Positions 10,301 through 60,203 of a DNA stretch of 64,000 nucleotides are shown here, piece by piece. Position numbers and translations under genes: made by a program. Within the stretch, counting starts at the first letter, position 1, and each line of letters opens with the position of its first letter. Under the pieces are notes generated by a model that saw nothing but the letters and a program-made list of their open reading frames with translations, searched no databases and was not told the DNA's origin. This stretch comes from Taxillus chinensis (Eukaryota > Streptophyta > Magnoliopsida > Santalales > Loranthaceae), in NCBI GenBank assembly GCA_023512835.1, contig CM042090.1, positions 58,391,865 to 58,455,864 of the forward strand. The letters are read 5' to 3'.

Positions 10301-10302
10301 AG

Positions 10303-20833: not shown

Positions 20834-20839
20834 AATAAA
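20834..20839 (+). terminator. AATAAA polyadenylation-type signal in copia B LTR
   Basis: AATAAA lies about 175 bases downstream of the TATA box in the 5' LTR. The 3' LTR has the same sequence near 32496, where it would serve transcript end formation. Confidence 0.5.
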
Positions 20840-20975
20840 ACAAAATACTTCCACTATCTGGTTATCTTCTGCAGTGATTCTATCACTTAACTAGATCAGT
20901 GCAGTGCCTTAAAAGAGTTAGAAAAGAGTTTCGATAAGAGCCTATTCACCCCCTCTAGGCTCCAAGGGACCATCA

Positions 20976-32637: not shown

Positions 32638-32820
32638 ATAGCCCACAGCAACGATAGGCTTGAACTAAAAATGGAAAGCCCTCAGCAACGATAGGCTTAA
32701 ATTGAAAATGGAAAGCCCACAACAGCGATAGGCTTAAATCGAAAATGGATAGCCCACAGCAACGATAGGCTTAAATTGAAAATGGAAAAGCCCACAGCAA
32801 TGATAGGCTTAAACTGGAAA
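32638..32820 (-). repeat. Minisatellite of Tat element D, right part
   Basis: About five units of the same repeat as 18617-19613 continue after copia B. The first five bases ATAGC are the duplicated target. Confidence 0.9.
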
Positions 32821-33746
32821 GATTTATTAGAGACATCGATTGGTATTTGGGGGAAATGCTTTAAGGAATTGGTGAGTTTGGGAAGTAACCCAATTTAAGC
32901 TCCCTCTACGAGTTCACTCAAGGAGATCGCTCTACGAGGTGACCCAAAATGGGAAAAAGTTTTTTCAAGTGCCAAAAGGATGCGTTTAAAGCTTGGGGAA
33001 TTTGGAAAGAAAGAGTTGTACAGTTGAACCAAAGAAAGCTAGGATCGCTTGATGAGAGGCTTGTTGGGTATGCTCCTAGGATCTTCAGAGGCGGCAACAT
33101 TCCTGAAATTACAGAGTATGCTAAATGTATGCAAATAATGCATGGACTGCAATATGTTGTATGTGGAGATGCATAAACCTCAATTTGTGGTAAAATATGA
33201 TGCTATGTGATGCAATGTGATGTATGTATTGAGGATTTGGCCGTTGTTGGAGAGGTCGGCTCATTCGGCTTGTTGGGGAACGATGTTCTCTTCGGATGGG
33301 GAGTCCGTCTTGTCTTTACCGGGGAACTCCCTTTTGTGCATGAAGGGTCTTGTTAAATTGAGCTTCACCATATTTGGAGCCCGACTTGACGGTATCTCTT
33401 GGGGGACAATGACATTTTGTGGAGATATGAGTACTCCGAGTAGGGGAACCTAATCGATAAATAGAATCACAAGTCTTTTAAAAAGCATAATATACAAATT
33501 TGATTCGAGCGTGCCGCAGGTTTGACCAAGTCTTCTCTTGTTCGCCGCCATTGTTTTCGGATGATGTTGTCTCCACTATTTGCAAAGGACCTGATTTGTT
33601 GTGGTCTTGATTCTTTTAGATTCGATCGATTGGTTTCACCCTTCAAAATTTATTTGTTGGCTTTGTATTTTACCCTTGGTGCCCTTTCGGGTTTTCACCA
33701 AGTCCGCTCATTACAGGAATGAGAATCTTGTGAGGAGGTATGAGAG
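32821..33746 (-). other. Tat element D untranslated region, no gene seen
   Basis: Inverted and diverged relative of 4438-5672. It includes one copy of the GCACCAAGGGTAAAATAC block (33660-33710). Plus-strand open frames here are reverse reads of untranslated sequence. Confidence 0.6.
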
Positions 33747-35261: not shown

Positions 35262-35513
35262 TTCTTTCAAAAATTGTTTTGGCCATAACTTTTTCATTTT
35301 AAGTCCGATTTGAGCTCGATCAAGTGCGTTGGTCTCCAATTTTTATCCTTTATCACCTGGTGTTGGTCTTGGGGCGCTTCAAGGACTTGTAGCAGAAACC
35401 ATTCCTTGGAAGTATGAGATCATTGTGGACTTGCTCAACAAGGTATATGGCATGGGCGAAAGGAATATCAAATGGGTTTAGTATATCTAGCCCGGACAAA
35501 ATGGGGTCCAACA
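35010..35513 (-). repeat. Tat element D 5' LTR, truncated
   Basis: The right edge reads GGGGTCCAACA on the plus strand, the mirror of TGTTGGACCCC. Only the first 504 bases of the LTR remain, to the GAAGC-type repeats. At about 35010 it passes abruptly into pol sequence, marking the deletion junction. Confidence 0.85.
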
Positions 35514-37115
35514 ACCGGCGAGATGCTCCCCTTGAAGAGCTATATGGAGAGCTATGGACTCATGAGGTCAGATTCAAATACACCGACCGAGACGAGAAGA
35601 TAGCTCGGAGAGAAAAGGGGGGTAGCTCTTAAGGCTACTAGCTGGACCAAGCATCTTTGGCAAGAGGATGATACGGAAGAGTCGAAAACTCGACTCGGAC
35701 ATAGAAGAAGAAATAGCACTCCTGGTGAAATCCTTCACATGATTTCTACGGAAAAGCAAAAAAGGATTCGAAGAGGTTCTTCCTCATCCTCGAGAAGGAA
35801 GGAGCGGTCGGAGTTAACATCCCAAGATCGCTACAATTACGGGAAACCTGGTCATTGGGCCAAGGACTGTAGATCCAAACTCAAGATGGCCAACACGGAT
35901 GACAAGGTTAAACCCCAACGCTCCACCTCAAACAACAGCAAAATGAAGAGGAAGGCGTTCTTCTTAAAATACAACAGTGGTTCGGAAGAAGAAGAGGAAT
36001 CTTCAAATGACGAACCAACGGAAAAGGCGAACGTCTGCCTCATGGCAAATGCTGAGGTACCTTCTATCTCTGAGCTCTTGAGTAAACTAGAATCTCTTAC
36101 TAAGGAACGTGATGATGAAAAGAATAAGAGATTAATAATTACTCAAATGTATCAAAATATGAGTGGTCGGACTAAACGCCTAGAACTTACTATTTCTAAA
36201 CTTGAAAAGGATATAGTCGACTATCGAAACAGGGAGGTTTGGTATCATGACCTAAGAGCTGAAAATCACTTGTTGAATACCAACCTCACGAGCATGAATG
36301 TAAATCTTAAAAGACTCGAGATTGAACTTGAGAAGGAAAAGGAAATAAATCGTAAATGGCTAAAAACTGGAGAAATAGCCTCTACATTTAGAACTAATCC
36401 CGACAATATCCGAGTCAAACCTGGCCTAGGATCCGAATCCACCTCCACTTGCTCCAGCCTACTAGTGCCCTCCGGACTACACTCCAAAACTAACCAACCT
36501 ATATCCTGTTAGTACATCTAAACCGTTGGATGGTTTTGTTTCAAGTGGCACCATAGTTTATGATTGTGGATCCGAGGTCACATCGCTAATCCCGAAGTAG
36601 TAGACCCGTGCCAAACGATGATGGGAAGGTTACCGTAGTTAAAGCCGAAACTACAGCACCCTGGAAACAAAGAAAAGGCTAAGGTTGACGCTTCCAGGGC
36701 CAAGAACACGTCACCCGTTCGCAGAGGATTAGGCCATAGGGAACGAGTAGAAACCTGTTAAGACAAAAAAACCTTGTATCCCTCACTATAACTCCACATC
36801 ATATGTTCTGCTTCGATATGTCGTGAAATAGGTCACTACTATTATGAATGTTGGAGTTTATCTGATGACTGGTTATGTAGTCACTTTTCAATCAATAAAA
36901 ATCAGGTTGTCAAAAAGGGTTCTTCTCGGAAATCTAAATCTAAAACTCCTCGGAGCGTCTCACCTAAGAAAACCCAAGTTAAAGAAGCAACTAATACGGA
37001 AAAATCTAAGTCAACCTGGAAAGTTAAAGTTCCGAGAAACGTAAAATCCGGAATAATTGACACTGTTGTTGCTTCTCCTAACCGCCCAAAACAAGTCTGG
37101 GCACCAAAAGTGTAA
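35514..37115 (+). pseudogene. gag: Copia A gag, 3' part
   Basis: It resumes after ACCGG with APLEELYGEL, the same place in gag where element B is uninterrupted. The zinc knuckle near 35830 keeps GKPGHWAKDC but its first two Cys are Arg and Tyr. A long open frame (35739-36512) carries an acidic Ser-rich block (SGSEEEEESSNDEP) and a coiled coil with LLSKLESLTKERDDEKNKR, followed by KPGLGSES. Further frameshifts lead to KQVWAPKV and TAA at 37113-37115. Confidence 0.85.
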
Positions 37116-40100
37116 TCTATTGTCTTGCAGGAGCATCTATGAAATTCACTGCCATCTCACTTGAAGTCAAAGATCAATCAAAGCAAGTGGATACTCGATA
37201 GCGGATGCTTCGGACACATGACGGGTGATAAGTCTCTACTTGTGGATATTACCGACAAACGAGGCCCATCCGTAACATATGGCGACAACAGTAAAGGTAA
37301 GACTGTGGGGTATGGCACTTTAACCAACGACTTTGTGTCAATTACTAAGGTTGCATTAGTCGAAGGTTTGAAGCATAATCGTTGAGTGTCGGTAATTTAT
37401 GTGACAAAGGATTCACGGTTTCCTTTTTGTCAAACACCGCACAGTTAGAGATAACTTATCCCAGGAGATATTAAGTTATCCGGATCAAGAGATGGGGACA
37501 TATATTCTGTGGTCTTGAGAAACAATTCTTCTGTCCCTGTATGCTTCCTCACTACAGCGTCACATGAAGATAGTTGGCTATGGCACAAGCGTTGCGCACA
37601 TTTAAATTTTAAGATCTTGTCTAAATTAGTGTCGCTTGATTTGGTCACCTGGTTTGCCTAAACACAAATACTCCAGAGACACTCTCTGTCGAGAATGCCA
37701 ACTTGGCAAACAGACCAAACATAGTTTTAAGAGCAAATCAGTTAATTCAATAACTGCTCCCTTACAGCTACTTCACATGGATATTTGTGGTCCCATTTCT
37801 GTTTCTTCACTAGCTAGTGCGAGATACACTCTTGTGGTTATCGATGACTTCACCAGGTACACATGGGTGTTGTTCCTGAAATCTAAGGATCAAACCTTTG
37901 AACATCTTGTCGATCTCTTCAACTGGATAAGCAACTCACAAGGACTGAGCATTAAATGCATCAGGAGTGATCATGGTACAGAATTTGATTTCTTAGATAT
38001 AAGGTCATATTGTTCTAAACAGGGCATTCAGCACGACTTCTCTGCGCCCAGAACTCCACAACAAAATGGGGTAGCTGAGTGCAAGAATCACACTTTAGTC
38101 AAGGCTGGCAGATCAATGTTAGAAGGGGCAAAGCTTCCTCTCTGTCTATGGGCTGAAGCGGTGTCTACTGCCTGCTATGTTCAGAACAGAACTCTTATAA
38201 ATAAAGTAACCATGAAAACACCCTATGAGATGTGGAAAGGCCGAAAGCCTTCTATTTCACACTTCAGAACTTTTGGGTGTACTTGCTACGTACCGAACAA
38301 TCGAAAAGAATCCCAGAATAAATTTGAACCAAAATCCGATGATGGGATATTTGTTGGGTATTCATTTCACAGCAAGGCTTATCGGGTTTTCAATAGAAAA
38401 CTCTTTAAAGTTGAAGAATCTATCCATGTAACCTTTGATGAAGCTAACCTGGATTGGTCGAAAGTTGGTTCTCCAAATTCCAGTGTGCAGGATCAAGACG
38501 ACAACATTGACTACTCAAAGTTTATGAATGTTCCTGTAACTCCTACCGACTAACCACGTGGCACCAAGTGAAGAACGAAGAAATGATACGAGATGATACT
38601 ACGGATGAATCGGACTCGGGACTTCAACTTATCTCCAGACATGTTCCTTCAGATATTCAACCTATCGGAGTATCTTCAAGTCCATCCGGACCAGCTAATA
38701 CAGAAATGAATAGTAATGGAGAACAGCAAAACACTCCAGAAACTATTAATATGGATAATACTGGTCCAGGAAGAAGCTCACACACAGACGAACAAGAACC
38801 ACCTAATCGACAGAGCTTCAAATCCCTGAATATTCACCACCACTTGCACAAAACTATAGGTGGACTCAAAACCACCCTCAAGAACAAGTGATTGGTGATC
38901 CTACTCGTTGGTATTAGAACAAGGGTAGCCACCTCCAATATGTGCCTTTACTCTTGCTTCTTGTCGCAAATAGAGCAAAAGGTGGTGGAAGAAGCACTTC
39001 AAGATTCAAATTGGGTAGACGCCATGCAGGAAGAGTTAAATCGGTTCAAAAGAAATGATGTGTGGACTCTTGTACCTAGGCCAAAGTCTCAACAAGTCAT
39101 TGGAGTTAAATGGGTGTTGGAACAAACTTGATACGGACGGAATCATAATCCAGGAACAATGCCCGATTGGTAGCCAAGGGTTATCGTCAAGAAAAAGGAA
39201 TAGACTATGACGAAACTTTTGCCCTAGTAGCCAGACTTGAGGCAATTAGAATGTTCTTGGCATACGCTTCATACAAAAACTTTAAAGTTTATCAAATGGA
39301 TATCAAGAGTGCATTTCTAAATGGAGACCTTCAAGAGGAAGTATATGTTGAACAACCTCCAAGCTTCGTTGAACCAAAGGCTGGACATCTGGTCTACAAA
39401 CTAAGGATAGCCTTGTATGGATTGAAACAAGCTCCAAGAGCCTGGTACGACACACTTTCGGAATTCTTACTTGCTCACAACTTTCAAAAAGGGAAGATTG
39501 ACACCACACTATTCTTACGGAAAGAGAAGGGACATACTCTGATCGTACAGATCTACGTGGTTGATATCATTTTCGGATCAACTAATCCGAAACTTTGTGA
39601 TGAGTTCGCCAAGTTGATGACGGCAAGTTTGAGATGAGTATGATGGGAGAACTGCCCCACTTCATTGGGATCAAAGTCAAACAACTGAAGGAAGGGATCT
39701 TCATAAACCAAGCTAAGTACACTCGTGACTTAATCAAGAAGTTTGGTATGGAAGGTTCGTCTCCCAACAAAACTCCAATGCCAGTCAGTGCCAAGTTAGA
39801 CCCAGATGTTGATGGCAATTCAGTGAATGTGACTTGTACAAAGGGATGATTGGATCTTTGCCGTACCTTACAGCGAGTCACCCAGACATAATGTTTGCAA
39901 CTTGCATCTGCGCAAGATATCAGGTGAATCCCAAAGAGTCACATATGCTTCATGTAAAACGAATATTAAGGTATCTCAAAGGGACGATGAATTTGGGACT
40001 TTGGTACCCAAAAGAGTCCAATTTCACCTTATCCGGATATTCTGATGCTAATTTTGCCGGGTGTTGCATAGACAGGAAAAGCACCAGTGGTACATGCCAA

Positions 40101-40497
40101 TTCCTTGGAAATAGATTGATCTCTTGGTTCAATAAGAAGCAGAATTCCATATCAACCTCTCTCGCTAAAGCGGAATATATAGTCTCTGGGAGTTCTCGCA
40201 TGACTTCTTTGGATGCAAAGTCAACTTATCGACTACGGCTTCAACATGACATCTGTTTCACTCTACTGTGACAATACCAGTGCTATTGCTATCAGCAATA
40301 ATCCCATCATGCATCCAAAGACTAAACATATTGAGGTCAGGCATCATTTCATTCGCGACCATGTTCTTAAAAAGCACATATCCCTGGAACATGTTGCTAC
40401 CGAAGATCAACTGGCGGATATACTTACAAAGCCCCTACCTGATGTAAGATTTTCTAAACTTCTTCTCAAATTAGGTATGCTTGACTTTTCTGCATAG
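37116..40497 (+). pseudogene. pol: Copia A pol: protease, integrase, RT, RNase H
   Basis: The protease has SKWILDSGCFGHMTGDKS (37180-37235). The integrase lies in one open 305-codon frame (37636-38553), with CRECQLGKQTKHSF, MDICGPIS, RSDHGTEFDF and QQNGVAECKNHT supplying D, D and E, then the GKP-type C-terminal region. RT (39000-39640) has [20 protein letters not shown], but the catalytic YVDD reads YVVD (39556-39567), losing one metal-binding Asp. RNase H (39640-40497) has SGYSDANFAG and HIEVRHHFIRDHV and ends GMLDFSA. Frameshifts near 37640, 38550, 39110, 39640 and 40190. The RT change makes this copy non-autonomous even without the shifts. Confidence 0.88.
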
Positions 40498-41459: not shown

Positions 41460-41894
41460 TGTAAGGACCCGTGTTTAAGGAGTTCTTGGAGTTAGCCTTA
41501 AGTAAGAGACCTTGTCTTAGAGAATGAACATCGGAAACGGTGAGGTGCTAGTCAAATGGAGAATTTTGACTATACTTGAGCTCAAGTTGGAGTTCGAGGC
41601 CCTGAGGGGTATTTTGGGAATTTCACACATCGTAAATAATATTTACTTGAGAGATTTATTTAAATATTTATTGGGCTTAATGAATTGGGCCGTTGAGCTT
41701 AAGAGATGGGTTAGAAAACCTTAGCCTTTGGGCTTATAGATCTTGGGCTTTAGATTAATCAAAACTACGTCGTTTTGATGTAGGGATTCACTTAATCAAA
41801 ACTACGTCGTTTTGATTATGTGGGAAAATATATAAAGAAAAAGGGGTTAAAAATTAGGGGATTTCTCATTTTGCAAACCCTAGCGGCCGTCAGG

Positions 41895-41935
<41 letters not shown>

Positions 41936-43770
41936 GGCCAGAGAGAGAGAGAGAGACGGCCAGAGAGAGAGAGAGAGAGGGAGGGAGACGATCCAAGGCC
42001 GACGATCTGAGGTTCCTGCTGACGATGGGAGACCGGAGGCGTCGAGGTAGCTAGGATACAACGATCTGTTGTATTCCCAAATTCTTGAGGTAGGGATTTC
42101 TTGATCAACCCTTGAAACTCTCTCACAAAATTCTGTATTTTTACCTGTCATGGATGTGATGCCGAGTATATACCTATATATATATAAGCGCGTGTTGGTT
42201 TATTATGAGATTTTCAATAGATATCTGAGGGAAAATTGATTTGGATGGCCTAGGTTTGTCTGGATGGGTGGTTAAGCATGAGTGTAGAGGCTGGAATTGA
42301 AAATAGGCCTTGTATCCTAGGTTTAACGCCTAATGATTTACAAACTAACCGGAATTGGAGGTGAGTTCTTTAGAGAGAAGTCTTTAGAATAACAAAACAA
42401 AGAAAACTGTGCAAAAACATAGCTGCACGCCAATTTGCACGCCATATCCCCAATTGGCGTGCAGGTCTAATTGCCCTAAAAATTTACCCCGGACATCCCT
42501 GAAGTGTGTAGAATGTAGGGAGCCAAAAATACCCCTGCACGCCATATGGCCCATATGACGTGCACCCTTCATTTTGCTTCTTTTGGCTGCCCCATTTAGC
42601 CAGAAGTCCCTTGTGTGAAAAATAGAGTGATTTGGGTAACAATCATGAGTTGAATTTGTCTAAAGATTTGCCAAAACAGCTCAAAAACACCTATGTTGGT
42701 AGAACTGTAAACTGTGAATGTTAGTGAATGTTGTTGCACACTGAATGCACTGTTGATTTACACTGATATATCTAAGTTATGCTTGCTGAGTTGCATTGAT
42801 ATATTTGAGTTGTGCTCTCTGAGTTGCTTTGTACTGAGTTGAGACGTATGCCTGAGTTGCATTACTGAGTTACACTTGCGTTTGAGCTGTGTTTGCTGAG
42901 ATGTACTTGTAATGTATTTGCTGAGATGCTGTGAACTTGTATTTGAGAATGAGTACCCAAACACTTGTGGGTTGAGATGACTTATGGGCCAGGCACAACT
43001 ATTGGACCCCCTTTGAGATTTGGCCGGGATCGCGGTCCTGAGTCTCGGTGTAGTACTCACGACGGCGGGCTAAGTCTGCACCCATTCCTGAGGGTAGGTA
43101 TGGCATCCGAGGAGGTGATGGCCATATTTGACTCGGGTAGAAAATGTTGCATTGGTGACCATGCAACATTCGCCTGGGTGTGGTATGTCATGTCGCCGTG
43201 GTGGCGAGGTGTCCTCTGCCCTCCAGTGTGGGCACAGGTAAATGGTGTGTTACTTGGTGATGTGTGCTGTTTAGATTTAGGCACTACACGAGCACAAGCA
43301 TACACTTTTCATGCATATTGTAGAGTGGGACAGGTCAGGGGAGACTGGAACCCTACTGAGCTATGGTTTGCTCACCCCTCCTATAAACTGTTCTTTTGCA
43401 GGGTCTGGCAGGCGGTAGGTGAAAGAGCTGTGGTGGTAGGCTACTGAGGCTGAAGATTTTATTAATTTTATTGTTTTTGTGGAATTGTACTTTTATGGTT
43501 TGGATTGTTTGTAAACAGAATATATTATGGTTTGATGGGAGTTTTTCCCCAACTGAGTTGTAATAGACTTTGAGTCCCTTCAAAAATTGAGATATGATTA
43601 TCATTTAATTTGTGGTTGTATGCATGGTTTGGGAGTAGGAGCATGCCCTGTGGCATGTAGCCTGGTTGTACAAGTTTGGGACAGCACCCATGTCAAGTCC
43701 TTTTTCTTTTAGGTGCTTGCACCAACCCCTTGACCCTTTGGGTGCGGGCATGGGCGGTCATTACCCATTT
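41460..43770 (+). repeat. Chromoviral (Tekay/Del-like) LTR inside copia A
   Basis: It opens TGTAAGGACCCGTG after the CCGAA duplication. Landmarks shared with 1349-3178 are two ACGT dyads (41758-41779, 41795-41816), TATATAAAG (about 41829), GCACGCC hairpins (42437-42462 and near 42537), a short-repeat zone (about 42780-42930) and GGTCAGGGGAGACTGGAACC (about 43333). No gag or pol is present, so it is a solo LTR or fragment. Its 3' end is unclear because an inverted TRIM follows directly. Confidence 0.75.
41897..41980 (+). repeat. (GA)n microsatellite in chromoviral LTR leader
   Basis: Two GA runs are separated by GACGGCCA units. GA or CT runs stand at the same place in the other two LTRs (about 2011 and 3757), soon after the TATA box. 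Confidence 0.85.
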
Positions 43771-44252
43771 CCGAGATAGCCCAACCCATACCCGTCACAA
43801 GAATTTTGGGCCTCGCCCTCATGGCCTGCTCTGCACGGTTTTGTCTTTGGGCCTCGCCCAAAATGCGTCCCTGTGAGGTGAGGTATCCGTTCCCTCCTAT
43901 AAGACGGACTTTGTTCCCCTCACCAAGCAATGTGGGACTAACACCCACTCATGGGTCGTTACAATCCACCCCCCTTAGGAGGCCCACGTCCCCATGGGAC
44001 CATGGCACACCGCTCCGGGTCCGGCTGCGATACCATCCGAGATAGCCCAGCCCATACCCGTCACAAGAATTTTGTCCACTTTGGCCAACCAGTCTTGGGC
44101 CTCGCCCTCATGGCCTGCTCCACACGGTTTTGTCTTTGGGCCTCGCCCAAAACGCGTCCCTGTGAGGTGAGGTATCCGTCCCCTCCTATAAGGCGGACTT
44201 TGTTCCCCTCACCAAGCAATGTGGGACTAACACCCACTCATGGGTCGTTACA
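43771..44252 (-). mobile_element. TRIM (terminal-repeat retrotransposon in miniature)
   Basis: On the minus strand: 5' LTR 44252-44037 starting TGTAACGACCCATGAG; primer site TGGTATCGCAGC within 44021-44036, close to the initiator-Met-tRNA complement; about 40 bases of internal sequence; polypurine tract CCTAAGGGGGGTGGAT (43979-43964); then 3' LTR 43963-43771 with the same start. The LTRs are 216 and 193 bp and share GGGCCTCGCCC and CACCAAGCAATGTGGG on the plus strand. It has no coding capacity. CCGAA follows it at 44253. Confidence 0.8.
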
Positions 44253-44926: not shown

Positions 44927-46449
44927 ATGGCATCCCAAGCTCTCTATGGTGTTATTCCTGGCCATCTTGTTGATTGGTCCAGAATCTCGATCCTCCAGCA
45001 TGACTCCACGAGGTTCGCCAGCTACTCGAGCACAAAGCAACCTTTTCGCACTTGTCTCTCGCCCCGGCCGATCTTCTAGTGTCGGCCGTCTTGGACTTCT
45101 ATCAGCACTCTACCTCCACCGAGGAGTATATCTTTTCCGTGGTTCGAGGGGAACGTATCAAGATCACACCTCGGGTGATCCGGGACGTCTTCAACCTTCC
45201 TTGCCGGCGATGACATCCGGCCAAACGCTGTTGCCATGGCTGCTTCCATGGGGTGTCCTAATAAGGTGAAGGAGTACAAAATGAAGTCTTTCCATGGTCC
45301 TCACCATTTGTATGGCCACCATACTCGGCTGGTGTCTTCTGGTTCACTCCACGGCTCTTGACTCGGTTCCGTACAATCTCCTACTTGGCGATGTATGCGG
45401 TTTTTGAGTCACCGCCACTTGACCGGGGCAACTTTCTCTTTCGGGTGTTGCGGAATGGGAAATGGTACTCGTCCTTCGGACAGATTCTGTCCCAAATTTT
45501 CCGGCATCTTCACCCCGCGTACTTCCAGGGTGAACTGGTGATTCCCTTCCTGGCGTCCTACTACTTCCGCCATCTTACCGCCGACGGGACCCTCACCGTT
45601 CGCCGCCCTCCGTCTCCCGTGCCCTTCTTGTTGCTTCGAACAGCAAGCTAGTTCTGTTGGTGAACCTGTTACAAGCTCGGGCCACGAAGTTAGTTTTGCT
45701 CTCCATCCGTTCATCGCCGCATCCGATCGTTGCCGCTCGGCACGCTCCCGCAGATTCGGCGCACGGCGTTCGGGCTCATCTATCTCTTGTTGTAGGGCCC
45801 TCTCGCCCGCCCTTCCATGAGGTTACCACATCCGCCTCTCTTGCTGATGTCCCTACCTCTCTTCCTGCTTGTCTGTTGCCTTCCGCGCCGATGCACCCGC
45901 ACCCATCTCTCCAATCCACGCCGGCTGTTGCTATTGTTCTTCCGGACCTTCCATCTTCTCCTGCGGAAGCCTCTCCCGCTCACTCTCCGGCCCTCCAAGA
46001 CTACCTCGACCATCTCCCCACCGACCTACTGAATGACTGCCTGGCTACGCTTTATCCTCGCCATTACTGCTGACATCCCCGAACCTACCCTCCGGGTGTT
46101 TAATGCTCAACACACCCAGACCCCGGAGGAAATGCTTATTTGGAACTGCTATCACAGCTTTGTGACGCCGTCGCTCCTCAAGGTTGCACCTCCTGCTGCT
46201 GCCTCTTCAGGCCTTGCCCATGACGCACGGACACCGCCCCTGCCGAGGCTGGCCCCTCTTATCCTTCGGATATCCCTATCATTGACCTCTCCGGTCAAAG
46301 TGGATCTGCCGCACCTCCTGCTACTGGCCGTCGTATAACCACCGTCCTCTCCTCTGCCGCCGACTCTACCCCCGCCCACACCTGCCCCTCTTCATGCGGG
46401 CGAGTCTTCGAAAGTTCCCGCCTTTGGTCTTGGGCGCGCCTCTTTTGCC
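44927..46449 (+). pseudogene. Copia A env-position gene, N-terminal domain and linker (frameshifted)
   Basis: The ATG at 44927 starts a frame with IPGHLVDWSRIS. After indels near 45005 the text continues with VLDFYQHSTSTEEY, then VRGERIKITPRVIRDVFNLP near 45100-45200, resembling the FYANL/VRG/LP pattern of the plant-transposon (Transposase_32-type) domain, then KEYKMKSFHG near 45270. Several frameshifts follow (about 45330, 45400, 45610). A long Pro/Ser/Ala linker occupies 45700-46400. The same order is kept in B. Domain identification is by pattern only. Confidence 0.65.
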
Positions 46450-47589
46450 ATGATTTTATCTGAGGCTGCTTTCTCCGCCCAACTCGATCGCCTTGCTGAG
46501 GACAGTCGTCTTCAGACCCAGGCCCTTTCTGACCATGTCCGGGCCATGGGTGCTGAGCTTCTTTCTGCCTTCTCCTCTACCTCTCTCTCCATGGATCAGA
46601 AGCTTGAGCGGCTTGCTGTGTCTTTCTCTGACTTGTCTACCTCCATTGCGGACTTAACGCAAGTCGTGGCTAGTCCCTCCCGCTCTTGCCGATCTGCCAA
46701 ACCGGGGGAGAAATCATCTGATCCTTCCCCTCTTTCCACTACTGGCGTTGCCTCTCACAAACGGTCTACACCTGCTCTTCCTCCAGGCCTTCCAGTGCCT
46801 AAACGCAGCCGTTTCTCCACTCGTCAGACCAGCTCTCCCACTCCTCCTGTTCCATCTGGTGCCATCTCCTTCCTCCCATCATACGCGGAATTGCATCTGG
46901 ATGATGCTGATGGGAGCATTCTTGCTGCGGCCAAGGCCTATGCCTTCTCCACTGTCGAGCGCCGATGTGTGTCTGCCTCGTCCCCCTTCGAACCTCAAGA
47001 CATCCGGACCATACTGTCTAAGGAGGGACAATTTTCCACTGACGACATCGACAACTATGCTCTGGCAGTAAAGATGGAGTTAAGGCTATTCCCTTCTTTA
47101 CTTGAGGAAGGCCTTGATTTTGATGTTCTTCCTTGCTGGGTTGAAAACCAGTTTCCTGCTGTGGACGTTATTCTATCCTACATCTATGGTACAACAGAGA
47201 ACAGCCGACCATGGACCTCTTTGTCCATCGTTTTCATCCCCTTCCGGGTCGACTCCCCACATTTCATACTGACTGTTTTTCTGATCAAAGAGAAGAAAAT
47301 CTTGTTTCTGGATTCTCATCAGGTTGTTGACCACCCGATTAGAAAGAATCAGATGAGGAGTCTCGTTCGAACCTTGTCGGATGCAATTAGACAGAGTTCT
47401 CTCTACGAAGACTTTGATCTACCGCCTCTTGGTCAGGATGAAGTACTTATGAGGACGATCTGGAACAAGAAGAATGTGCCCCAGCAACCCGATGGAAACA
47501 GTTGTGGAGCCTTTGTCTGCTACTTCTTGAAATCTATTATCTCCTTCGATGATGACTGGAAAAATATCATCGAGTTCTCCAAGAAGTAG
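46450..47589 (+). CDS. Ulp1/SENP-like C48 cysteine protease (C-terminal half of copia A env-position gene)
   Basis: An uninterrupted 379-codon frame. Residues 1-75 form a predicted coiled coil (LDRLAEDSRLQTQALSDHV). KRS at 104 and PKRSRF at 117-122 look like a nuclear signal. Residues 135-250 are a conserved pre-domain, and the protease is at about 250-379: RPWTSLSIVFIPF, His271 in PHFIL, Asp288 in FLDSHQ, Gln346 and Cys352 in QQPDGNSCGAFVCYFL. The His-Asp gap of 17 and the Gln six before Cys are those of SENP/Ulp1 enzymes, which cut SUMO or related modifiers. The substrate here is unknown. The chain probably begins at 44927; the ATG at 46450 is internal. A TAG at 47587 ends it, while the second tandem copy suggests about 22 further codons. 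Confidence 0.85.
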   Translation: MILSEAAFSAQLDRLAEDSRLQTQALSDHVRAMGAELLSAFSSTSLSMDQKLERLAVSFSDLSTSIADLTQVVASPSRSCRSAKPGEKSSDPSPLSTTGVASHKRSTPALPPGLPVPKRSRFSTRQTSSPTPPVPSGAISFLPSYAELHLDDADGSILAAAKAYAFSTVERRCVSASSPFEPQDIRTILSKEGQFSTDDIDNYALAVKMELRLFPSLLEEGLDFDVLPCWVENQFPAVDVILSYIYGTTENSRPWTSLSIVFIPFRVDSPHFILTVFLIKEKKILFLDSHQVVDHPIRKNQMRSLVRTLSDAIRQSSLYEDFDLPPLGQDEVLMRTIWNKKNVPQQPDGNSCGAFVCYFLKSIISFDDDWKNIIEFSKK

Positions 47590-47792
47590 ACAATGGCACT
47601 ACGAAAGCATGCAGCAAGGATGATCTTCAAATATAGTAAGCCGTATGTACCATAATTTATATCTGTACTAAGGCTTAATGTATTCCTGCTGTAACTGAGT
47701 GGAACTGTTCACTTTAATCCTTACCTCTGTGTTATTTGCTGCCTTACCGGATCAGATTACAACGGGTTTGGCATATCCATATTGGAGGAGAT

Positions 47793-48340
47793 TGTTGGAT
47801 CAAACCGAGAATTTGGATAATGCGGAACAAACCCTATGTAATTTGACTCGAGATGTTTCATGTTTACCATTAAGTTTGTGCAGATGAGTTAACTCTAAAT
47901 CCGGATCTACTCGTGTGAGAACAAAGCTAAGGACAGGATACATAATCCTGATCCGGATCATCATGAGTATCGTCATTCATTTGGTACATAACCGAGTCTT
48001 TATCTGGAGTAAGGACTTTTCGTGCGGACTAAATTCTTGACAAATCGACTTGAGGAACCCGTGTCTAACTCTCAATTTGACTAAGTCAATTGAAAATGAA
48101 TAAGATTCCAAGTCTATCACTTGCACGGAATAAGAGAGACTTTTTACGAAGAGAGAATCGAAATTGTCACTCCACCGGACTAAAGAAAAGGAAAACACGG
48201 ACCGAGAAATCCGAGTCTCATTTGAACGGAGCAAGGACAATTGTTGCGGAGTAAGGAACCTTATGATGGACTAAGAAGATCTTTGCTTCATCATTTCCAA
48301 GCCGCTTTCATTACAATCAGCTCGCTTTGTCCCGATGTAA
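47793..48340 (+). repeat. Copia A LTR fragment in tandem unit 1
   Basis: It starts TGTTGGATCAAACCGAG after the PPT and ends at CCCGATGTAA, where the next gene-end copy begins. No TATA box is included. Confidence 0.88.
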
Positions 48341-48501
48341 ACAGTTGTGGAGCCTTTGTCTGCTACTTCTTGAAATCTATTATCTCCTTCGATGATGACT
48401 GGAAAAATATCATCGAGTTCTCCAAGAAGCGGAGACAATGGCACTACGAAAGCATGCAAGCAAGGATGATCTTCAAATATAGTAAGCCGTATGTACCATA
48501 A
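48341..48501 (+). pseudogene. Second copy of Ulp1 gene 3' end
   Basis: It carries NSCGAFVCYFLKSI and continues in frame through RQWHYESMQARMIFKYSKPY to a TAA at 48499-48501, showing the likely true C-terminus. The first copy has a TAG instead where this copy reads CGGAGA. It lacks the His and Asp region and cannot be a protease alone. Confidence 0.85.
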
Positions 48502-48638
48502 TTTATATCCGTACTAAGGCTTAATGTATTCCTCGTAGAATCGAGTGGAACTGTTCACTTTAATCCTTACCTCTGTGTTATTTGCTGCCTTACCGGATCA
48601 GATTACAACGGGTTTGGCATATCCATATTGGAGGAGAT

Positions 48639-49187
48639 TGTTGGATCAAACCGAGAATTTGGATAATGCGGAACAAACCCTATGTAATTTGACTCGAGAT
48701 GTTTCATGTTTACCATTAAGTTTGTGCAGATGAGTTAACTCTAAATCCGGATCTACTCGTGTGAGAACAAAGCTAAGGACAGGATACATAATCCCTGATC
48801 CGGATCATCATGAGTATCGTCATTCATTTGGTACATAACCGAGTCTTTATCCGGAGTAAGGACTTTTCGTGCGGACTAAATTCTTGACAAATCGACTTGA
48901 GGAACCCGTGTCTAACTCTCAATTTGACTAAGTCAATTGAAAATGAATAAGATTCCAAGTCTATCACTTGCACGGAATAAGAGAGACTTTTTACGAAGAG
49001 AGAATCGAAATTGTCACTCCACTGGACTAAAGAAAAGGAAAACACGGACTGAGAAATCCGAGTCTCATTTGAACGGAGCAAGGACAATTGTTGCGGAGTA
49101 AGGAACCTTATGACGGACTAAGAAGATCTTTGCTTCATCATTTCCAAGCCGCTTTCATTACAATCAGCTCGCTTTGTCCCGATGTAA
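48639..49187 (+). repeat. Copia A LTR fragment in tandem unit 2
   Basis: Same extent as the fragment in unit 1, from TGTTGGATC to CCCGATGTAA. It differs by a few substitutions and single-base indels. Confidence 0.88.
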
Positions 49188-49312
49188 ACAGTTGTGGAGC
49201 CTTTGTCTGCTACTTCTTGAAATCTATTATCTCCTTCGATGATGACTGGAAAAATATCATCGAGTTCTCCAAAAGCGGACAATGGCACTACGAAAGCATG
49301 CAGCAAGGATGA
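49188..49312 (+). pseudogene. Third copy of Ulp1 gene 3' end
   Basis: NSCGAFVCYFLKSIISF is again readable, followed by a three-base-shorter joint (CCAAAAGCGGACAATGG) that shifts the frame and ends in TGA near 49310. Only the tail of the protease is present. Confidence 0.85.
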
Positions 49313-49480
49313 TCTTCAAATATAGTAAGCCGTATGTACCATAATTTATATCTGTACTAAGGCTTAATGTATTCTCTGTGAATCGAGTGGAACTGTTCAC
49401 TTTAATCCTTACCTCTGTGTTATTTGCTGCCTTACCGGATCAGATTACAACGGGTTTGGCATATCCATATTGGAGGAGAT

Positions 49481-50588
49481 TGTTGGATCAAACCGAGAAT
49501 TTGGATAATGCGGAACAAACCCTATGTAATTTGACTCGAGATGTTTCATGTTTACCATTAAGTTTGTGCAGATGAGTTAACTCTAAATCCGGATCTACTC
49601 GTGTGAGAACAAAGCTAAGGACAGGATACATAATCCTGATCCGGATCATCATGAGTATCGTCATTCATTTGGTACATAACCGAGTCTTTATCTGGAGTAA
49701 GGACTTTTCGTGCGGACTAAATTCTTGACAAATCGACTTGAGGAACCCGTGTCTAACTCTCAATTTGACTAAGTCAATTGAAAATGAATAAGATTCCAAG
49801 TCTATCACTTGCACGGAATAAGAGAGACTTGTTACGAAGAGAGAATCGAAATTGTCACTCCACCTGGACTAAAGAAAAGGAAAACACGGACCGAGAAATC
49901 CGAGTCTCATTTGAACGGAGCAAGGACAATTGTTGCGGAGTAAGGAACCTTATGACGGACTAAGAAGATGTCGCTTCATCATTTCCAATCCGCTTTCATT
50001 ACAATCAGCTCGCTTTGTCCCGATGTAAAACAAACCCGTTGACAACCTAACTCCTTACACGTTGATCACGCGGATATGTGGACGCGGTCTCAAATGCAAT
50101 TGGAATCAAGCAAGAATTCATCACAACTTATACTTCCAATATTTCGAGCTCCACATCCAGGCAGATAAAGCTTCAACATTTTCCGATGAAGAACTTCAAT
50201 GCTTCACACCGCTCGGAAAATGCGGTTCCAAAATAGATTCCTAGGATGTATATATATACCTGAAGCAATGTAAATAGTGTGTGTGTGAGCTTAGAACATA
50301 CGAAGACTTACAATCGTATATCGCGTGAAAAAGCTCATACGGAGATTTACCGACCAAGTGTGTGTAACTATAATAGGGTGTTGTGTTGTAATCAGCTAAA
50401 ACACTGTTTTGCTTCGTTGTAATTATCTTTACATAATAAAGCAACATACTTCCACTACCTGGTTAACCTTCCACACCGATTCTATCCGTTTAACCAGAAT
50501 GAGTGTCTAAGCCATTAAGAGAGAGAAAGAATTTTCAAAGAGCCTATTCCCCCCCCCCCCCCGCCTTCTAGGCTCTCCGGGACCAACA
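49481..50588 (+). repeat. Copia element A 3' LTR, complete
   Basis: It opens TGTTGGATCAAACCGAG and closes GGGACCAACA (1108 bp), followed by GAAAG. It keeps the segment the 5' LTR has lost (AGGACAGGATACATAATCC) but has fewer GGAGTAAG motifs. It includes a TATA-like run near 50250 and a poly-C run (50549-50561) where length may be uncertain. Confidence 0.9.
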
Positions 50589-51030
50589 GAAAGCATGTCA
50601 TCTTCCAGTTGAGCTTGAGCATAAGGCATATTGGGCAACTCGATATTTAAATATGGATGCTCAAAAGGCTGGTGAAGAAAGATTGCTACAACTGAATGAA
50701 CTGGAAGAATTCAGACGATCAGCTTATGAAAATGCCAAGATCTATAAAGAGCGAACCAAGCAGTGGCATGACAAGCACATTTCTTCAAAACAATTCACAG
50801 TGGGACAAATGGTATTATTATTCAACTCCAGATTAAAGCTCTTTCCAGGGAAGCTTAAATCAAAGTGGTCAGGCCCATACCATATCCGTGAGATAATGAA
50901 GAATGGAGCCATCCGTATACAGTCAGGGATAGATACTCCATTCCTTGTAAACGGACAAAGATTGAAGCCCTATGTGTGTAAGGAACCACTCGAGAAAATG
51001 GTGATTTACCTCAAGGATGAGGCAACTTAA
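50589..51030 (+). pseudogene. pol: Athila-like element H integrase C-terminal domain
   Basis: After the GAAAG duplication the frame continues the integrase interrupted at 13568 and stays open to the TAA at 51028-51030. Residues include EEFRRSAYENAKIYKERTK, RLKLFPGKLKSKWSGPYHI and VNGQRLKPY, the usual DNA-binding end of Athila integrases. There is no internal stop in this part. Confidence 0.9.
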
Positions 51031-51832: not shown

Positions 51833-52660
51833 ATGGCTGTTTTTCCCCGATATTGCTTGGATTGGGCCTCTTTTGCCCAAAGTACAGTCTCATGGAAGCC
51901 AGGAGTGATGCAGGAACTAGAAGCAGGTGGAATCCGGCAGCTATGCTCTGATCCTTCGCCTTTTCTTCCTAATGGAGCTGGCGAGTTCTATGATTCACTC
52001 TACAAGGAGACAAGGAATGGTGAAGATTGCTTAGTGGGCATAGTGCAAGGATTTGAGGTGGTGGTTTCGGTTGGAATTATCCATCAAATATTCTAGTTGC
52101 CTGAAGTAAGTGCTCCCCTTCCTAATCTGACTAGTCAGGAACATAGCATGGCTTTAAATTATCAAGACCCAGGTGGATCAGCTAGGAGGTACTGCAAGAA
52201 AACTGGTTTTCAAATGCATGTTAGGTTCTTGGCTATATTATTAGGCAAATGTGTTTTTAGTCAGCACCCTAAACAAGAATCAGTTATTCATGAGCACTTG
52301 TTATGCATGTATGCTGTGGTCATCTTACTGAGTTATTTACTCAGGTAAGATCATGTTGGAGCAATATCCTTACTTAGCACAACTTACTTCCGTGACTCCT
52401 TACCCCCGGGGTTCATTATGAGGAGCATCTCGAGAGGATGGCACACTTGCTGTCCGTTTGGTGGGCCGTGTCTTTCGGCGTGTCCATGGTTATGAGTCAC
52501 ACCAAGCAGCTGCCCCTCCTTCACCACAAGTGACATCAGAAAGCCCTCACCATTTATTCCATTTTTCAAGATAGCCTTCTTTCTTTCCGGCCACCGAAGA
52601 ACCTCCTGAGCCCAGCCGCGCTTCCTCTTTCCAGGCACCTGATTATTCTGATTTTCCAAC
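51833..52660 (+). pseudogene. Element H env-position gene, N-terminal (Athila env-like/plant-transposon type) domain
   Basis: One frame runs from the ATG at 51833 to 52348 with a single in-frame TAG (52094-52096), giving FYDSLYKETRNGEDCLVGIV and then NLTSQEHSMALNYQDPGGSA and SVIHEHLLCMYAVVI. Later blocks continue in other frames to about 52640. The pattern (helical domain with a conserved histidine-rich HEHLLCMYA block) is what Athila env-like proteins show. Start and exact family are uncertain. Confidence 0.55.
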
Positions 52661-52670
52661 TTAACAATTC

Positions 52671-53009
52671 ATGGATCAGCTAAACACTTTGGCTCGGTTG
52701 GTGGAAGTTTCACACCAAGCTCACACAAAGAAGTTAGCTGGTCTTTTCTCTTTTGTGAGGGGATTCACTAAGCGCAAACAAAAAAGTCCACACCCACCGT
52801 CACCACCTGTTGAAGAGGAGGAAAATATTGAAGAGGAAGAGCCTGTTGAAAAAGAAGCACCTGCTCCAGCTATATATGGATACTTGGCAAACCAACCATA
52901 TTCCTCTTATTCTCCAATGACTTCCCCGTGCCTATTTATATTCCAGATGAACTCATGACAGAGGAACCTTCTCCTCTACAACCTTCTCGAAGACCGCCAT
53001 CCTCCCGGG
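52671..53009 (+). pseudogene. Element H env-position gene, acidic/proline linker
   Basis: An open frame of 95 codons contains a basic KRKQKSPHPPSPP stretch followed by EEEENIEEEEPVEKEAPAP. It sits between the N-terminal domain and the protease, as the Pro/Ser linker with basic cluster does in copia A. A frameshift near 52925 leads to the protease frame. Confidence 0.6.
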
Positions 53010-53831
53010 TTGCTTAGCAAAGCTGCGATGACACGCATGCAGGGTCGCAAGAAGGAGGCATCCTTCTGGAAGGTCCTTGATATTTTTGTGCCACCTGGGA
53101 TAACAACACCATCCGCTCAAGCCGAATATATTGCCTTCAAACATAGCAATGCCGACTTATACCGAAGCACAGGTTTCGCCCAGTATACATTTCCCGCAAA
53201 CCTACGCTATATCACACAGCGCCATTGGTTTGATAGCTCTGATATTTCCAACTTTGGGTATGCCTTACGGATTGCCATTCGCCGGTTTTCTACGGTTTTT
53301 CCTTTAGGAAGCCGTGCTTTGAGATCCTACCTACCATGTCCTATCAACCAAGTAATGCCGGCTTCCATCTTCCAACAATACATTGAGGGCCGTTTCAATG
53401 GTTTTCAGCCATGGGTTACACTTGACTTCGTCCTCATCCCTGTACACTTCATGAATCACTTTGTGCTCTTACGCGTCAACCTTTGTTCTTTGGTGGTCGA
53501 GCTCTTTGATTCTTATGCTCATCCAGAGCCCAGTGACCATCTCCTTTCCCTCTAACATTCCATCGTTTCAAACATCAGTGATGCCTTACACACCTCTGGT
53601 TTCTTTTCCCAAAGCGGCAGACAGCCACCTTCACCACGCCTTCCACTCTTCTAGCGCCAGAGCATTCTGCAACAACCGAATATCAACGGTTGTGGAGCAT
53701 TCGTGTATTACTACATGACCGCTTGTGTTCAGGCTTATGGCGGAACGTGGACAACCGTCCTAAAACTCTCACCTGATGCACCGAGGGAAATAGTTGCTCA
53801 ATTCATCTACTTTTTCAGCCAACCGGTGTAG
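53010..53831 (+). pseudogene. Ulp1-like C48 protease of Athila-like element H
   Basis: One frame covers 53010-53831 with two in-frame stops (TAA 53553-53555, TAG 53652-53654). Counting from 53010, the pre-domain has RHWFDSSDISNFGYALRIAI. The protease has QPWVTLDFVLIPVHF, His150 in NHFVLL, Asp167 in ELFDSY, and Gln222 with Cys228 in QQPNINGCGAFVYYYM. His-Asp spacing is 17 and Gln-Cys is 6, equal to copia A. The pre-domain aligns by eye with copia A 196-266 (DDIDNYALAVKMELRLF, RPWTSLSIVFIPF). So it is homologous, not just the same fold. Both stops lie between Asp and Cys, so this copy is inactive as read. Confidence 0.8.
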
Positions 53832-55098
53832 TTCAGGTACTTCTCTCCTTACTTTCCTCTCATTTTTGGCATGAAGACCATGCCTTGGTTTAAGTGTGAA
53901 GGAGGGGAAAGTGTTGCACACTTTTATATTTGTTTCGTTTGATTGCATTTTTTTTTGTATCCCTTGTATATACATTGCATGATTGATTGATTGCATGAAG
54001 GCTTGCTTGACTTTGGAGATAGCATATGGTCTAGGATAGAGGCACCCGCACCTACTTGAAGTATATTGTGTATATTGGAAGTAATGCTTAGACTCTTTAA
54101 ATTATTTTCTCTATGCTTGGAATGATATCATTATATGCATGAGCCAACACTTGGGTTCGTACTAGGTTTTCATGTTTAAATGCAAAAGCTTGCTTAATCT
54201 TTGGAGTTGTGTGATTAGAGAGAAATAGTCCATCACCGCAATTATCTTTTTATGAGGGATTTTAGCTCTTGGTTGATGAGCTTGGGCAAGTGCATGTTTG
54301 ACCTACTTATGGTGATTGATTTGTGCTAAATAAGATAGGCTAGAGTCACATGCTACTGCGATGTGGGTAGCTTAGTTGATGCTCCTTAGTACTGACTCTA
54401 CTTTATTTAAAAAAAAAACAAAAACAAAAAAACAAAAACAAAAAAACAAAAAAAAAAAAAAACAAAAACAAAAACAAAAATCTAGTGGCAATTGTGTAAA
54501 TGGGGTTTTATCATCTTTCGAGGATTACCCGCTCCTCTCTCAAATAATTATATTGTACACCCCATATGTTTGTGCCACTTTTAGTTGTGTTTTGATACAT
54601 TTAAGATTTTCTGAGTCTACATCTTTTAGGTTGAGCATCATTTGGGTAACTCACCTCTCGCGGTGGCATGTGGCAAAGGCTACGGTTTGTGGTAAGACTG
54701 GATGTGTCACCATAAGAAAGGACTGCTTGTACTCACTTAAGGTCTGAAAACCCTTAGAGGTACTGAGAGTGAGTGATGTGAGACTTACACTTGAGTGAGG
54801 CAGCCTTGTTTCCATTGTGAGAACTCCATGGACTTGCTTGTTATGCTTTTAATCTGATTAACTTGGTTGTTCCTTAGTATTGGTCAGGATTGTATATAAT
54901 TGTTAGACTAAGTATAAGAAGACAATGCAAAGTGTTTTGGGCTGCACTCTAATCATGCAATGCACTTTCATATATTACATGTGTTTTCTGCTAACCATTA
55001 TCTCACTTGTGATTTTCCTTTTCTTATTTTTCACTTGCTTGATTGAGTGTTTATTTCTTTTCTTGCTCGGGACGAGCAAGGTTCAAGTGTGAAGGAGA
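53832..55098 (+). other. Element H 3' untranslated region
   Basis: Non-coding, ending near GGACGAGCAAGGTTCAAGTGTGAAGGAGA, a block typical of Athila elements just before the PPT and LTR. It contains a low-complexity A/C tract at 54408-54480. The region 53832-54400 and 54500-55060 shows no motif I recognise. Confidence 0.6.
54408..54480 (+). repeat. A-rich AAAAAC low-complexity tract
   Basis: Runs of A with single C at 5-8 base spacing. Its product is a Lys/Gln repeat without meaning. Confidence 0.9.
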
Positions 55099-56891: not shown

Positions 56892-57657
56892 CTTACATCG
56901 GGACACAACGAGCCGATAACATAAATGCGGTATGGATAAGTTGTAGTAGCATCTTCTTAGTCCGGTGTAGATTTCCTTACTCTGTATCAATGAGGCTTGG
57001 ATCCTTACTCCGTGTCAATTATTGCTTACTCCGTGTAAATGAAGTCCTGAAATCCTTACTCCATGTCAGCGCTTCCTTACTCCGCATGAGGTAGATATGC
57101 GGAATCCTTATTCCGCATCAGTGCTTCCTTACTCCGCGTGAGTTCCTTCGCTTGAGTAATAGTTCGGATTCCTTATTCTGCAATAGTTGTCCTTACTCCG
57201 TATCAGTCATTTCTTACTCCGCTCAAATGAAAGACTCGGATTCCTTAGTCCGTATCTTCTTTTCCTTAGACAGCTGAAGTGAAAGACTTAATTTCTTTCT
57301 CCGCAATAAATCTCTCTTACTCCGTACGAGTTGTAGACTCGGATTCTCATTCCGCATAAATTGACTTAGTCCAATCAAGAATAAAAGCACGGATTCCTTA
57401 GTCTTTTTTGTCAAGTGATTAGTCCGTACGAAGGGTCCTTACTCCGGATGAAGACTTGGTTATTTACCAAGTGTTTGACGACACTCATGATAATCCGGAT
57501 CAGGATTATATATATCCCGTCCTTGGCTTTGCTCTCTCGAGTGTAAGTCCAGTTTAGGATTTTATCTTCGCAAGCTTAGAATAAACATGAAACATCTCAA
57601 ATCAAATTACATAGGGTTTTTTAACAACATCATCCAAATTATGGGCTTGATCCAACA
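56892..57657 (-). repeat. Copia (A/B-related) LTR fragment, inverted
   Basis: On the minus strand it starts TGTTGGATCAAGCCC at 57657, carries the GGAGTAAG motif array (seen as CTTACTCCG) and ends at CCCGATGTAAG near 56892. That is the same LTR position at which the tandem units of element A are cut. The TATA and R-U5 part is missing. It abuts integrase codons of the minus-strand Athila-like element. Confidence 0.85.
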
Positions 57658-58437
57658 AATGACATTCCTTCCCATAAAGAATGCGATACGGTCACATTCC
57701 AATGGGAGTTTTATAGGCTGTCCTATATGCCCATGAGGCTTCATCAATCCTTTAAGACCAATCCTTCATGTTTCCTCCAACTATCTTCTCTAAAATGGCT
57801 TTAATCTCTCTGTTGGACACCTCAGCCTGTCCATTAGCTTGTGGGTGGTAAGCTAAATACTTCCAATGGTTCACACCATATTTCACCAATAATTTATCAA
57901 ATAACTTATTACAAAAGTCATCACTAATTATAGCCCTTGGTGTCCCAAAGCAGCCTAAAAATATTCCTTCAGAGGAATTTAGTCACAACCCTGGCATCAT
58001 TTACTTTTGTTGGAATTGCCTCCACCCATTTCGACACGTAATCCACAGCCCAACAAAATATATGAATAGCCATCAGAGATGGGGAATGGCCCCATGAAAT
58101 CTATACCCCAAATGTCAAAAATCTCAACCGAAAGAATTCCAGTTAAGGTCATCTCATTCTTCCTAGACAATCCACCTACCCTTTGGTATCTATCACAGGT
58201 TTTAATGTAAGTGTAAGTGTCCTTAACCATTGTGGGCCAATAAAACCCACATTGCCTAATTTTGGCCACTGTCCTTTGGACTCCAAAGTGGCCCCCATAG
58301 TTAGATGCATGGCAATTATGCAAAATAGCATTGGTTTCTTCATCTGGGACACACCTCCTAATGATCCGATCAAGACACCGTCTGTAGAGGATGGGATCAT
58401 CCCAAATGTACCTCTGAGCTTCAGTGATAAACCTCTT
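57658..58437 (-). pseudogene. pol: Element F integrase (zinc-binding and core)
   Basis: Zinc-binding region: NCHASNYGGHFG and CDRYQ, where the second Cys of CxxC is Tyr as in element H. Core: IWGIDFMGPFPISDGYSYIL, then, after frameshifts near 58010 and 57960, blocks for the second Asp (58000-57930) and for the QANGQAE-type Glu (about 57830). The last codons read PYRILYGKECH and stop at the copia LTR edge (57657). Confidence 0.82.
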
Positions 58438-58989
58438 TCACTGGTGATAATCAAACCTTTTGGGAATAAATTCAGTGGCTAAATAGTTTGCTATGTCAGC
58501 AAACCAAGGAAGTTGGCTAACCTCAAGTACCTTCTCATCAGGGAAGTCATCTAAAATGGGTAGAGACTTTAGTGCATTTTCCACACGGGAGAGGTGATCA
58601 GCCACAGTATTCAGAGCTCCCTTTGTATCTCTAATTTTAAGATCAAACTCCTGTAAAAGGAGAACCCATCTAAGCAAGCGTGGCTTAGCTTCCTTTTTGG
58701 CAAACAAATATTTCAAGGCTGCATGATCAATAAACACAACAACCTTAGACCCAAAGAGGTAGGGTCTAAATTTGTTACATCCATAAACCACTGTCAGCAG
58801 CTCCTTCTCAGTGGTGGTGTAGTTGTGTTAGGCCTCATCAAGGGTTTTACTTGCATAATAAATTACCCTAAGCACCTTATCTCTTCGTTGCCCAAGGACT
58901 ACCCCCACAGCATAGTCACTGGCATCACAAATCAGTTCAAAGGGTTGTTCCCAGTTTGGTGTGACTATCACAGGTGCAGTGACGAGCTT
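58438..58989 (-). pseudogene. pol: Element F RNase H
   Basis: The frame 58791-58438 contains [40 protein letters not shown] and [11 protein letters not shown], the C-terminal half of Athila RNase H. The first half (58985-58800; CDASDYAVG and KALDEA-type blocks) is separated by a stop near 58828. It would remove template RNA during cDNA synthesis. Confidence 0.85.
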
Positions 58990-60191: not shown

Positions 60192-60203
60192 ATCTTCCTC
60201 TCC

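Follow-up and report, generated by a model that had tools for sequence, protein, structure and literature searches.

Proteases of the Ulp1/SENP type, recognised by the Peptidase_C48 (C48) domain, are known as parts of several kinds of mobile element. Among the closest described systems is KIU (Kaonashi), an Ulp1-bearing VANC anti-silencing protein of VANDAL Mutator-like elements (MULEs) (PMC13317346, PMC6117577). C48 domains also occur in CACTA elements (PMC8978399), in Ginger1 (PMC2836005) and in NeSL/Utopia elements lacking long terminal repeats (LTRs) (PMC4640811). Here we describe a 64-kb stretch (the window) of the 521-Mb genome of Taxillus chinensis, a nested stack of retrotransposons as read by self-BLAST and from the element junctions. 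A Ty1/copia LTR retrotransposon in this window, element A, carries a sense-strand C48 gene between pol and the 3′ LTR, the position of envelope (env)-like genes, and a gypsy element of the same window also ends in a similar two-domain gene before its 3′ LTR. C48 domains were already known from these MULE, CACTA, Ginger and NeSL-type transposons; within the open-access literature, their presence in the env slot of LTR elements, and in that of a gypsy element beside a copia element, appears to be new.

KIU resembles the product of the present gene in being a plant protein that is encoded by a mobile element and bears a C48 domain, and anti-silencing has been described for the KIU-carrying VANDALs (PMC13317346, PMC6117577). 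A first-pass annotation of this DNA had also noted that plant MULEs have captured Ulp1 domains. The carriers differ, being VANDAL/MULE DNA transposons in one case and LTR retrotransposons whose gene has a Transposase_32-like N-terminal domain in the other; the copia elements described here have target-site duplications (TSDs), LTRs and pol, and are not MULEs. CACTA, Ginger1 and NeSL/Utopia likewise have C48 as a mobile-element part, but they are DNA or non-LTR elements with the domain in the transposase or reverse transcriptase (RT) protein or in a second open reading frame (ORF). The env-like gene of SIRE1-type elements, which by junction motifs are probably of the same genus as element A, likewise stands after pol and ahead of the 3′ LTR and is described as envelope-like, with no mention of a peptidase domain in the text examined (PMC3599292, PMC2829016). 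The additional 3′ ORF of sunflower Athila 14 shares the N-terminal domain family, Transposase_32, whereas the text of that paper has no match for Ulp or SUMO (PMC11728184). The terms Ulp, protease, peptidase and SUMO are likewise absent from a review devoted to the additional ORFs of plant LTR elements (PMC7264820), and we found no report of C48 in the env slot in open-access PMC, subscription papers and database annotations lying outside that search. One apparent hit was discarded, "C48" in PMC8127270 being a treatment label.

The first-pass annotation had placed the gene of element A at 44927–47655. Its C-terminal part stands as a 379-codon open frame at 46450–47589 on the + strand, within a stop-free stretch of 416 codons beginning at 46339, a length that none of 1000 sequences simulated from a first-order Markov model of this region attained (longest simulated run, 331). 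By its match to the Pfam model, this frame carries a Peptidase_C48 (Ulp1/SENP) domain at residues 251–364 (PF02902; E = 1.5e-9; score 38.5 bits, cut-off 20.7). The four residues named in that annotation, His271, Asp288, Gln346 and Cys352, are present at those positions, with the stated His-Asp spacing of 17 and the Gln six before the Cys, and they follow the C48 order when aligned against a solved enzyme. A profile combining the copia and gypsy C48 sequences matched SENP1 in PDB with E = 2.5e-10. The upstream half (44927–46447, +) fared less well, consisting of several broken frames, so that the full protein is not encoded by A and only the C-terminal part of its gene stays open. Within this half, a Transposase_32-like piece at 45052–45210 (+) matches PF20167 with E = 0.0043, its score of 17.4 bits lying below the cut-off of 45.

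Element A is bounded by a 5′ LTR (13569–14758, +, found by self-BLAST) and a 3′ LTR (47793–50588, +), with the exact 5-bp TSD GAAAG at 13564–13568 and 50589–50593. The region from the end of gag to the end of pol spans 35509–40497 (+) and closes with the TAG stop already noted at 40495–40497; it includes an integrase core and SH3-like domain at 37636–38550 (+; Pfam rve and SH3_retrovirus). A polypurine tract (PPT) plus AT at 47783–47792 (+) directly precedes the 3′ LTR. A second copia element, B, lies inside the span of A and has a 5′ LTR (19614–20975, +; TSD ATAGC at 19609–19613), gag-pol (21185–26775, +; Pfam Retrotran_gag_2 with E = 1.8e-22, and homology to A) and a 3′ LTR (31273–32637, +; ATAGC at 32638–32642). 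The LTRs of B are 96.6% identical to each other, and 35509–40497 of A shares 80.5% DNA identity with 21730–26775 of B. The spacer between pol and the gene is 7.3 kb in A and 4.5 kb in B, that of A being swollen by a 2.8-kb insertion (41460–44252, strand not assigned) with CCGAA on both sides and the ends TGTAAGGACC...GGTCGTTACA; its solo-LTR-like form suggests that it is a solo LTR.

The SIRE-type assignment of the host made in the first-pass annotation agrees with most of the tested Sirevirus junction motifs, for which PMC2829016 served as reference. In both elements, the AT/TG attachment site and the PPT position (10 bp before the 3′ LTR) are exact, a polyC run lies near the LTR ends, and an inverted repeat surrounds the PPT/3′ LTR junction whose score was matched in 0 of 1000 shuffles for each. 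The PPT octamer differs from the reference AGGGGGAG by one base in B and two in A. No clustered identical octamers were found near the 3′ LTR of A or B; the exact octamer has two sites in the linker of A, one of them within the insertion, and a single site in that of B. At the 5′ junction and primer-binding site, for which the reference is ATTGG or its G variant followed by TATCAGAGC, A has AGTGG TATCGAGC and B has AGTCG TATCGAAGC, both close to the reference. Judged by these junction motifs, Sirevirus is probably the best label for the copia host.

Element B was said to have this gene too, at the corresponding place, and in position and homology it does (28382–31060, +; tblastn E = 3.5e-35 and 1.9e-27 against A, with 40% amino acid identity over A residues 2–200). 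Its N-terminal part is open at 28382–29434, but its C48 part is broken by frame shifts and stops, with Gln at the position of the catalytic Cys in the matching frame. Pooled over 339 codons, the proportions of nonsynonymous (pN) and synonymous (pS) differences between A and B are 0.35 and 0.71, the latter near saturation.

Elsewhere in the genome, 40 DNA matches to the copia C48 gene were scored out of 2342 candidates, those besides the window's own being 94–97% identical to it. Of the 39 other copies, seven served for the analysis of the downstream flank and of codon statistics. For 22 (ranks 2–23 of the 40 scored), the upstream flank was examined in two-kb stretches 2.7–4.7 kb upstream of the C48 copy. 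The family LTR starts about 200 bp past the C48 stop in all seven. Upstream, pol was found in 11 of the 22 (L039, L042, L043, L047, L050, L065, L067, L070–L073) and the post-pol spacer without pol in three (L045, L049, L066). The stretch at L068 is displaced env-gene sequence, where a short match to 35270–35513, common to repeats of the window, was not scored as pol. At L049, LTR-like sequence stands near the spacer, without gag-pol, upstream of the C48 gene, and this copy is possibly a pol-less derivative.

These contexts bear on the idea that the gene is part of some other transposon that has become nested close to where the LTR elements end on their 3′ side. The window is heavily nested, and the remaining seven upstream stretches (L040, L041, L044, L046, L048, L069, L074) have no recognised content, both of which would suit such an origin. 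We nevertheless hold it to be most improbable, given that the TSD-bounded elements A and B hold the gene at the same place, that an LTR lies directly downstream in 7/7 copies, and that pol lies upstream in 11/22 copia copies and a gypsy integrase upstream in 4/6 gypsy genes. A chance insertion or nested foreign gene was likewise rejected on the TSDs, the common place in A and B and the genome copies. The gene appears to belong to the copia family, as first proposed. Of the two outcomes that the first-pass annotation named as refuting, the absence of a C48 match did not arise; the other, that family members besides A and B lack the gene, is at odds with the 39 further copies scored, a count made of gene-bearing copies only.

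The catalytic His, Asp, Gln and Cys are retained in all eight copia sequences compared (the window plus seven), and five of the eight are stop-free in the frame of A, including L008, which is one base short. The pooled pN/pS ratio is 0.45 in codons 171–379, compared with 1.31 in codons 1–110 and 1.13 in codons 111–170, so that the constraint sits on the peptidase; the median pairwise ratio of nonsynonymous to synonymous substitution rates over the whole frame is 0.71. The selection check proposed in the first-pass annotation returned purifying selection on the C48 part of the copia gene, and none on the part before it. This result has to be set against the view that the gene is a captured host or transposon fragment, amplified as a passenger with the family and without function for the element. 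Gene capture by plant transposable elements is common, according to PMC13317346, and the neutral linker codons and the stops in many copies would be expected of a passenger. The low pN/pS of the C48 regions (0.45 in copia, 0.36 in gypsy), the presence of the gene in diverged families of two superfamilies, and open frames of about 600 amino acids argue otherwise, and we consider a passenger unlikely.

The data do not support the gene being special to copia elements. A third C48 region, at 53193–53771, which the first-pass annotation does not mention, belongs to a gypsy element and aligns by tblastn with E = 8e-16 and 26% identity. The left part of this element's pol frames (10267–13563, +) is interrupted by element A, which is inserted in its integrase. 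The RT, ribonuclease H (RNaseH) and integrase order was read by eye. The integrase core (13115–13600) matches Pfam rve with E = 4.6e-13, the protease piece has a weak Pfam match (E = 0.05), and no Pfam family matched the RT piece at 11355–11678. To the right of A, the same gypsy element resumes at 50590 with the integrase C-terminus (50590–51024, +); this piece had no Pfam integrase match, and its homologues stand directly after the integrase core at L059, L061, L063 and L064. The env-position gene follows at 51833–53828 (+), with an N-terminal part, an acidic, proline-containing linker and the C48 region. A purine tract (53898–53911, +) comes next, and then a putative LTR start, TGTTGC, at 53912, which would be that of the gypsy element; no second LTR of it was found within the window. 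Lying after the integrase C-terminus and before the purine tract and TG start, the C48 gene is the last gene of the element. Its frame is interrupted by two in-frame stops; the His-Asp piece matches the Pfam model below the cut-off (E = 0.0091), and the Cys piece is unmatched. We take the element to be probably Athila-like from its integrase features; the label also draws on the report of Transposase_32 in a sunflower Athila ORF (PMC11728184).

A protein search of the genome scored 150 places out of 4702 candidates. The Cys lies in the open frame at six of the 30 gypsy loci L009–L038, most of the remaining frames stopping before it. L018 has a 674-amino-acid open frame with a Peptidase_C48 match of 52.9 bits. 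Eight diverged relatives (L051–L058; 33–36% identity) have C48 in frames of 386–616 amino acids, several of which run up to the edge of the sequence examined; five of them (L051, L053–L056) have the Cys, the frames of L057 and L058 end before it, and some have open frames of about 600 amino acids with all catalytic residues. By tblastn, four of six gypsy-type C48 genes (L059, L061, L063, L064) have a gypsy integrase upstream in the same orientation, with RT/RNaseH-like frames seen by eye; for the other two (L060, L062), the 3 kb upstream contain the gene's own N-terminal part and nothing else recognised. Over 174 codons in 26 sequences (the window and L010–L034, with L035–L038 and other matches left out), the gypsy pN/pS is 0.36. 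At L051, a gag frame in which a zinc-knuckle-like motif was seen by eye continues directly into C48 in a 609-amino-acid open stretch, which suggests a non-autonomous gypsy derivative that retains gag and C48.

A profile alignment of the N-terminal parts of the copia and gypsy proteins reached 94.8% probability (E = 5.5e-8, 78 columns), and the two genes thus share a collinear two-domain plan, which raises the question of gene exchange between the superfamilies. The Pfam C48 model, run on the genome, scored 150 places out of 4308 candidates, every one of which exceeded the cut-off, comprising gypsy copies and different groups (for example L076–L082). In an unrooted FastTree of 15 sequences, which left out L055 and L057 (frames ending early) as well as L017, L023, L051, L052 and L058, the gypsy-type sequences L018, L014, L056, L053 and L054 group with a database protein, P0001 (support 0.84). 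With modest supports and an unrooted tree, we make no claim of exchange between copia and gypsy; C48 genes form a large pool in this genome, and recruitment from it in parallel is as possible as exchange. The genome also holds C48 frames of another type at L078–L081. The assembly's top-scoring Pfam C48 match, L075 (G000:C191:94603-95094), lies on a small contig in a 1092-amino-acid open frame; it looks like a cellular, perhaps fungal, Ulp1 and is possibly contamination.

The 379-residue protein matched nothing at E 0.001 in a set of 5.8 billion proteins (5744 candidates). A profile of eight sequences matched one protein, the 365-amino-acid P0001, which is closest to the gypsy relative L057 (75% over 305 amino acids). 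Searches of viral contigs found no relatives of the C48 protein or of either integrase, gypsy or copia. A first AlphaFold model, made from the window pieces alone, was poor, with a predicted local confidence score (pLDDT) of 45.5, and was not used for the fold search. The best matches in both sequence and fold are the SENP/Ulp1 deconjugases. The likeness to cellular ULP/SENP proteins extends to the sequence profile, catalytic residues and predicted fold; the ULP/SENP proteins differ in being encoded by cellular genes, and structural alignment with Ulp1 and SENP1 gave 13–18% identity.

The gene thus has homology to C48 peptidases and their catalytic residues, lies between pol and the 3′ LTR, recurs in many copies and is under purifying selection in its peptidase part. 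From its sequence, the product is most likely an element-encoded cysteine isopeptidase acting on SUMO- or ubiquitin-like conjugates. Tentatively, and at somewhat less than an even chance, we read the last gene of these copia and Athila-like gypsy families as a Transposase_32-like/C48 protein serving as an element-made deconjugase, most likely against silencing. The protein would comprise an N-terminal Transposase_32-like domain of plant transposable elements, a proline-rich or coiled linker and the C-terminal C48 cysteine peptidase. It would be translated from the element's RNA and would not be an envelope protein; its N-terminal domain may direct it to a target, where the peptidase would strip SUMO or another ubiquitin-like modifier off host or element proteins. 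The benefit, by analogy with KIU of VANDAL MULEs, would most likely be weaker silencing of the element. The wider proposition, that the "envelope" gene of both the Sirevirus and the Athila-like lineages of this genome is a Transposase_32-C48 counter-silencing deconjugase, exchanged or recruited in parallel as the LTR counterpart of VANC/KIU, seems to us doubtful.

Two other functions can be weighed on the same data. The protein might act in the particle, making late cleavages of gag or a precursor as adenain does in adenovirus, beside the element's own aspartic protease; the closest matches in sequence and fold are deconjugases, and the gypsy pol already seems to encode an aspartic protease (by the weak match above), so that we judge a particle protease improbable. 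The C48 part might instead be a binding or targeting module of an env-like or movement protein in which catalysis is dispensable. The slot has been read as env-like (PMC3599292, PMC11728184), the Cys is lost in element B, and the gypsy relative L052 has Ser there. The retention of all four catalytic residues in 8/8 copia copies, and of the Cys in open frames of 6/30 gypsy loci and 5/8 diverged relatives, makes this quite improbable.

Several observations weigh against the deconjugase reading itself. The structural support is modest: TM-scores by query are 0.27–0.44 among the first 24 matches, only two fold-search matches have E ≤ 0.001, the structural Z is little above the tool's stated background of 7–8, and the pLDDT of the model is below 50 at the catalytic Cys. 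Decay is frequent. Beyond the broken C48 part of B, stops occur in three of the eight copia sequences, a fourth (L008) being one base short, and 16 of the 26 gypsy sequences have at least one stop in the compared stretch; L052 has Ser for Cys, and L057, cut by a frame break, scores 19.4 against the C48 cut-off of 20.7. The Transposase_32 match of L018 reaches 33 bits, below its Pfam cut-off of 45. In the tree, copia A joins the genomic C48s L078–L081 (0.71), apart from the gypsy group. VANC proteins have DUF1985 (PMC5735166), which did not appear among the matches, taken to E = 10, of L018, L056, P0001 or the L060 piece, a miss by hidden Markov model being weak evidence; and KIU proteases are held unlikely to act on SUMO in PMC6117577.

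The role of env-like genes in plant LTR elements is an open question, and a catalytic C48 domain would supply a concrete, testable biochemical function for them, hinting at interference with the protein-tagging or silencing machinery of the cell. LTR elements would join MULE, CACTA, Ginger and NeSL-type elements in a theme of repeated gain of Ulp1-type proteases, and, should the enzyme reverse silencing modifier marks, retrotransposons would possess an anti-silencing weapon.

Further features of the window were recorded. A unit of about 843 bp, made up of the end of the C48 frame (~100 bp), the PPT and the first part of the LTR, occurs about three times in tandem at 47488–50029 with 98% identity, and its copies enlarge the 3′ LTR of A; the array may be either a true duplication or an assembly artefact. 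An array of 37-bp units is present at 5671–6680, 18613–19613 and 32638–32821, and element B sits inside one such array. A second gypsy pol lies on the minus strand at 57755–60905, its segment 58595–59808 sharing 66.6% DNA identity with 11411–12622, and a related copia LTR is found at 56892–57658, where the 3′ part of this minus-strand gypsy element would follow.

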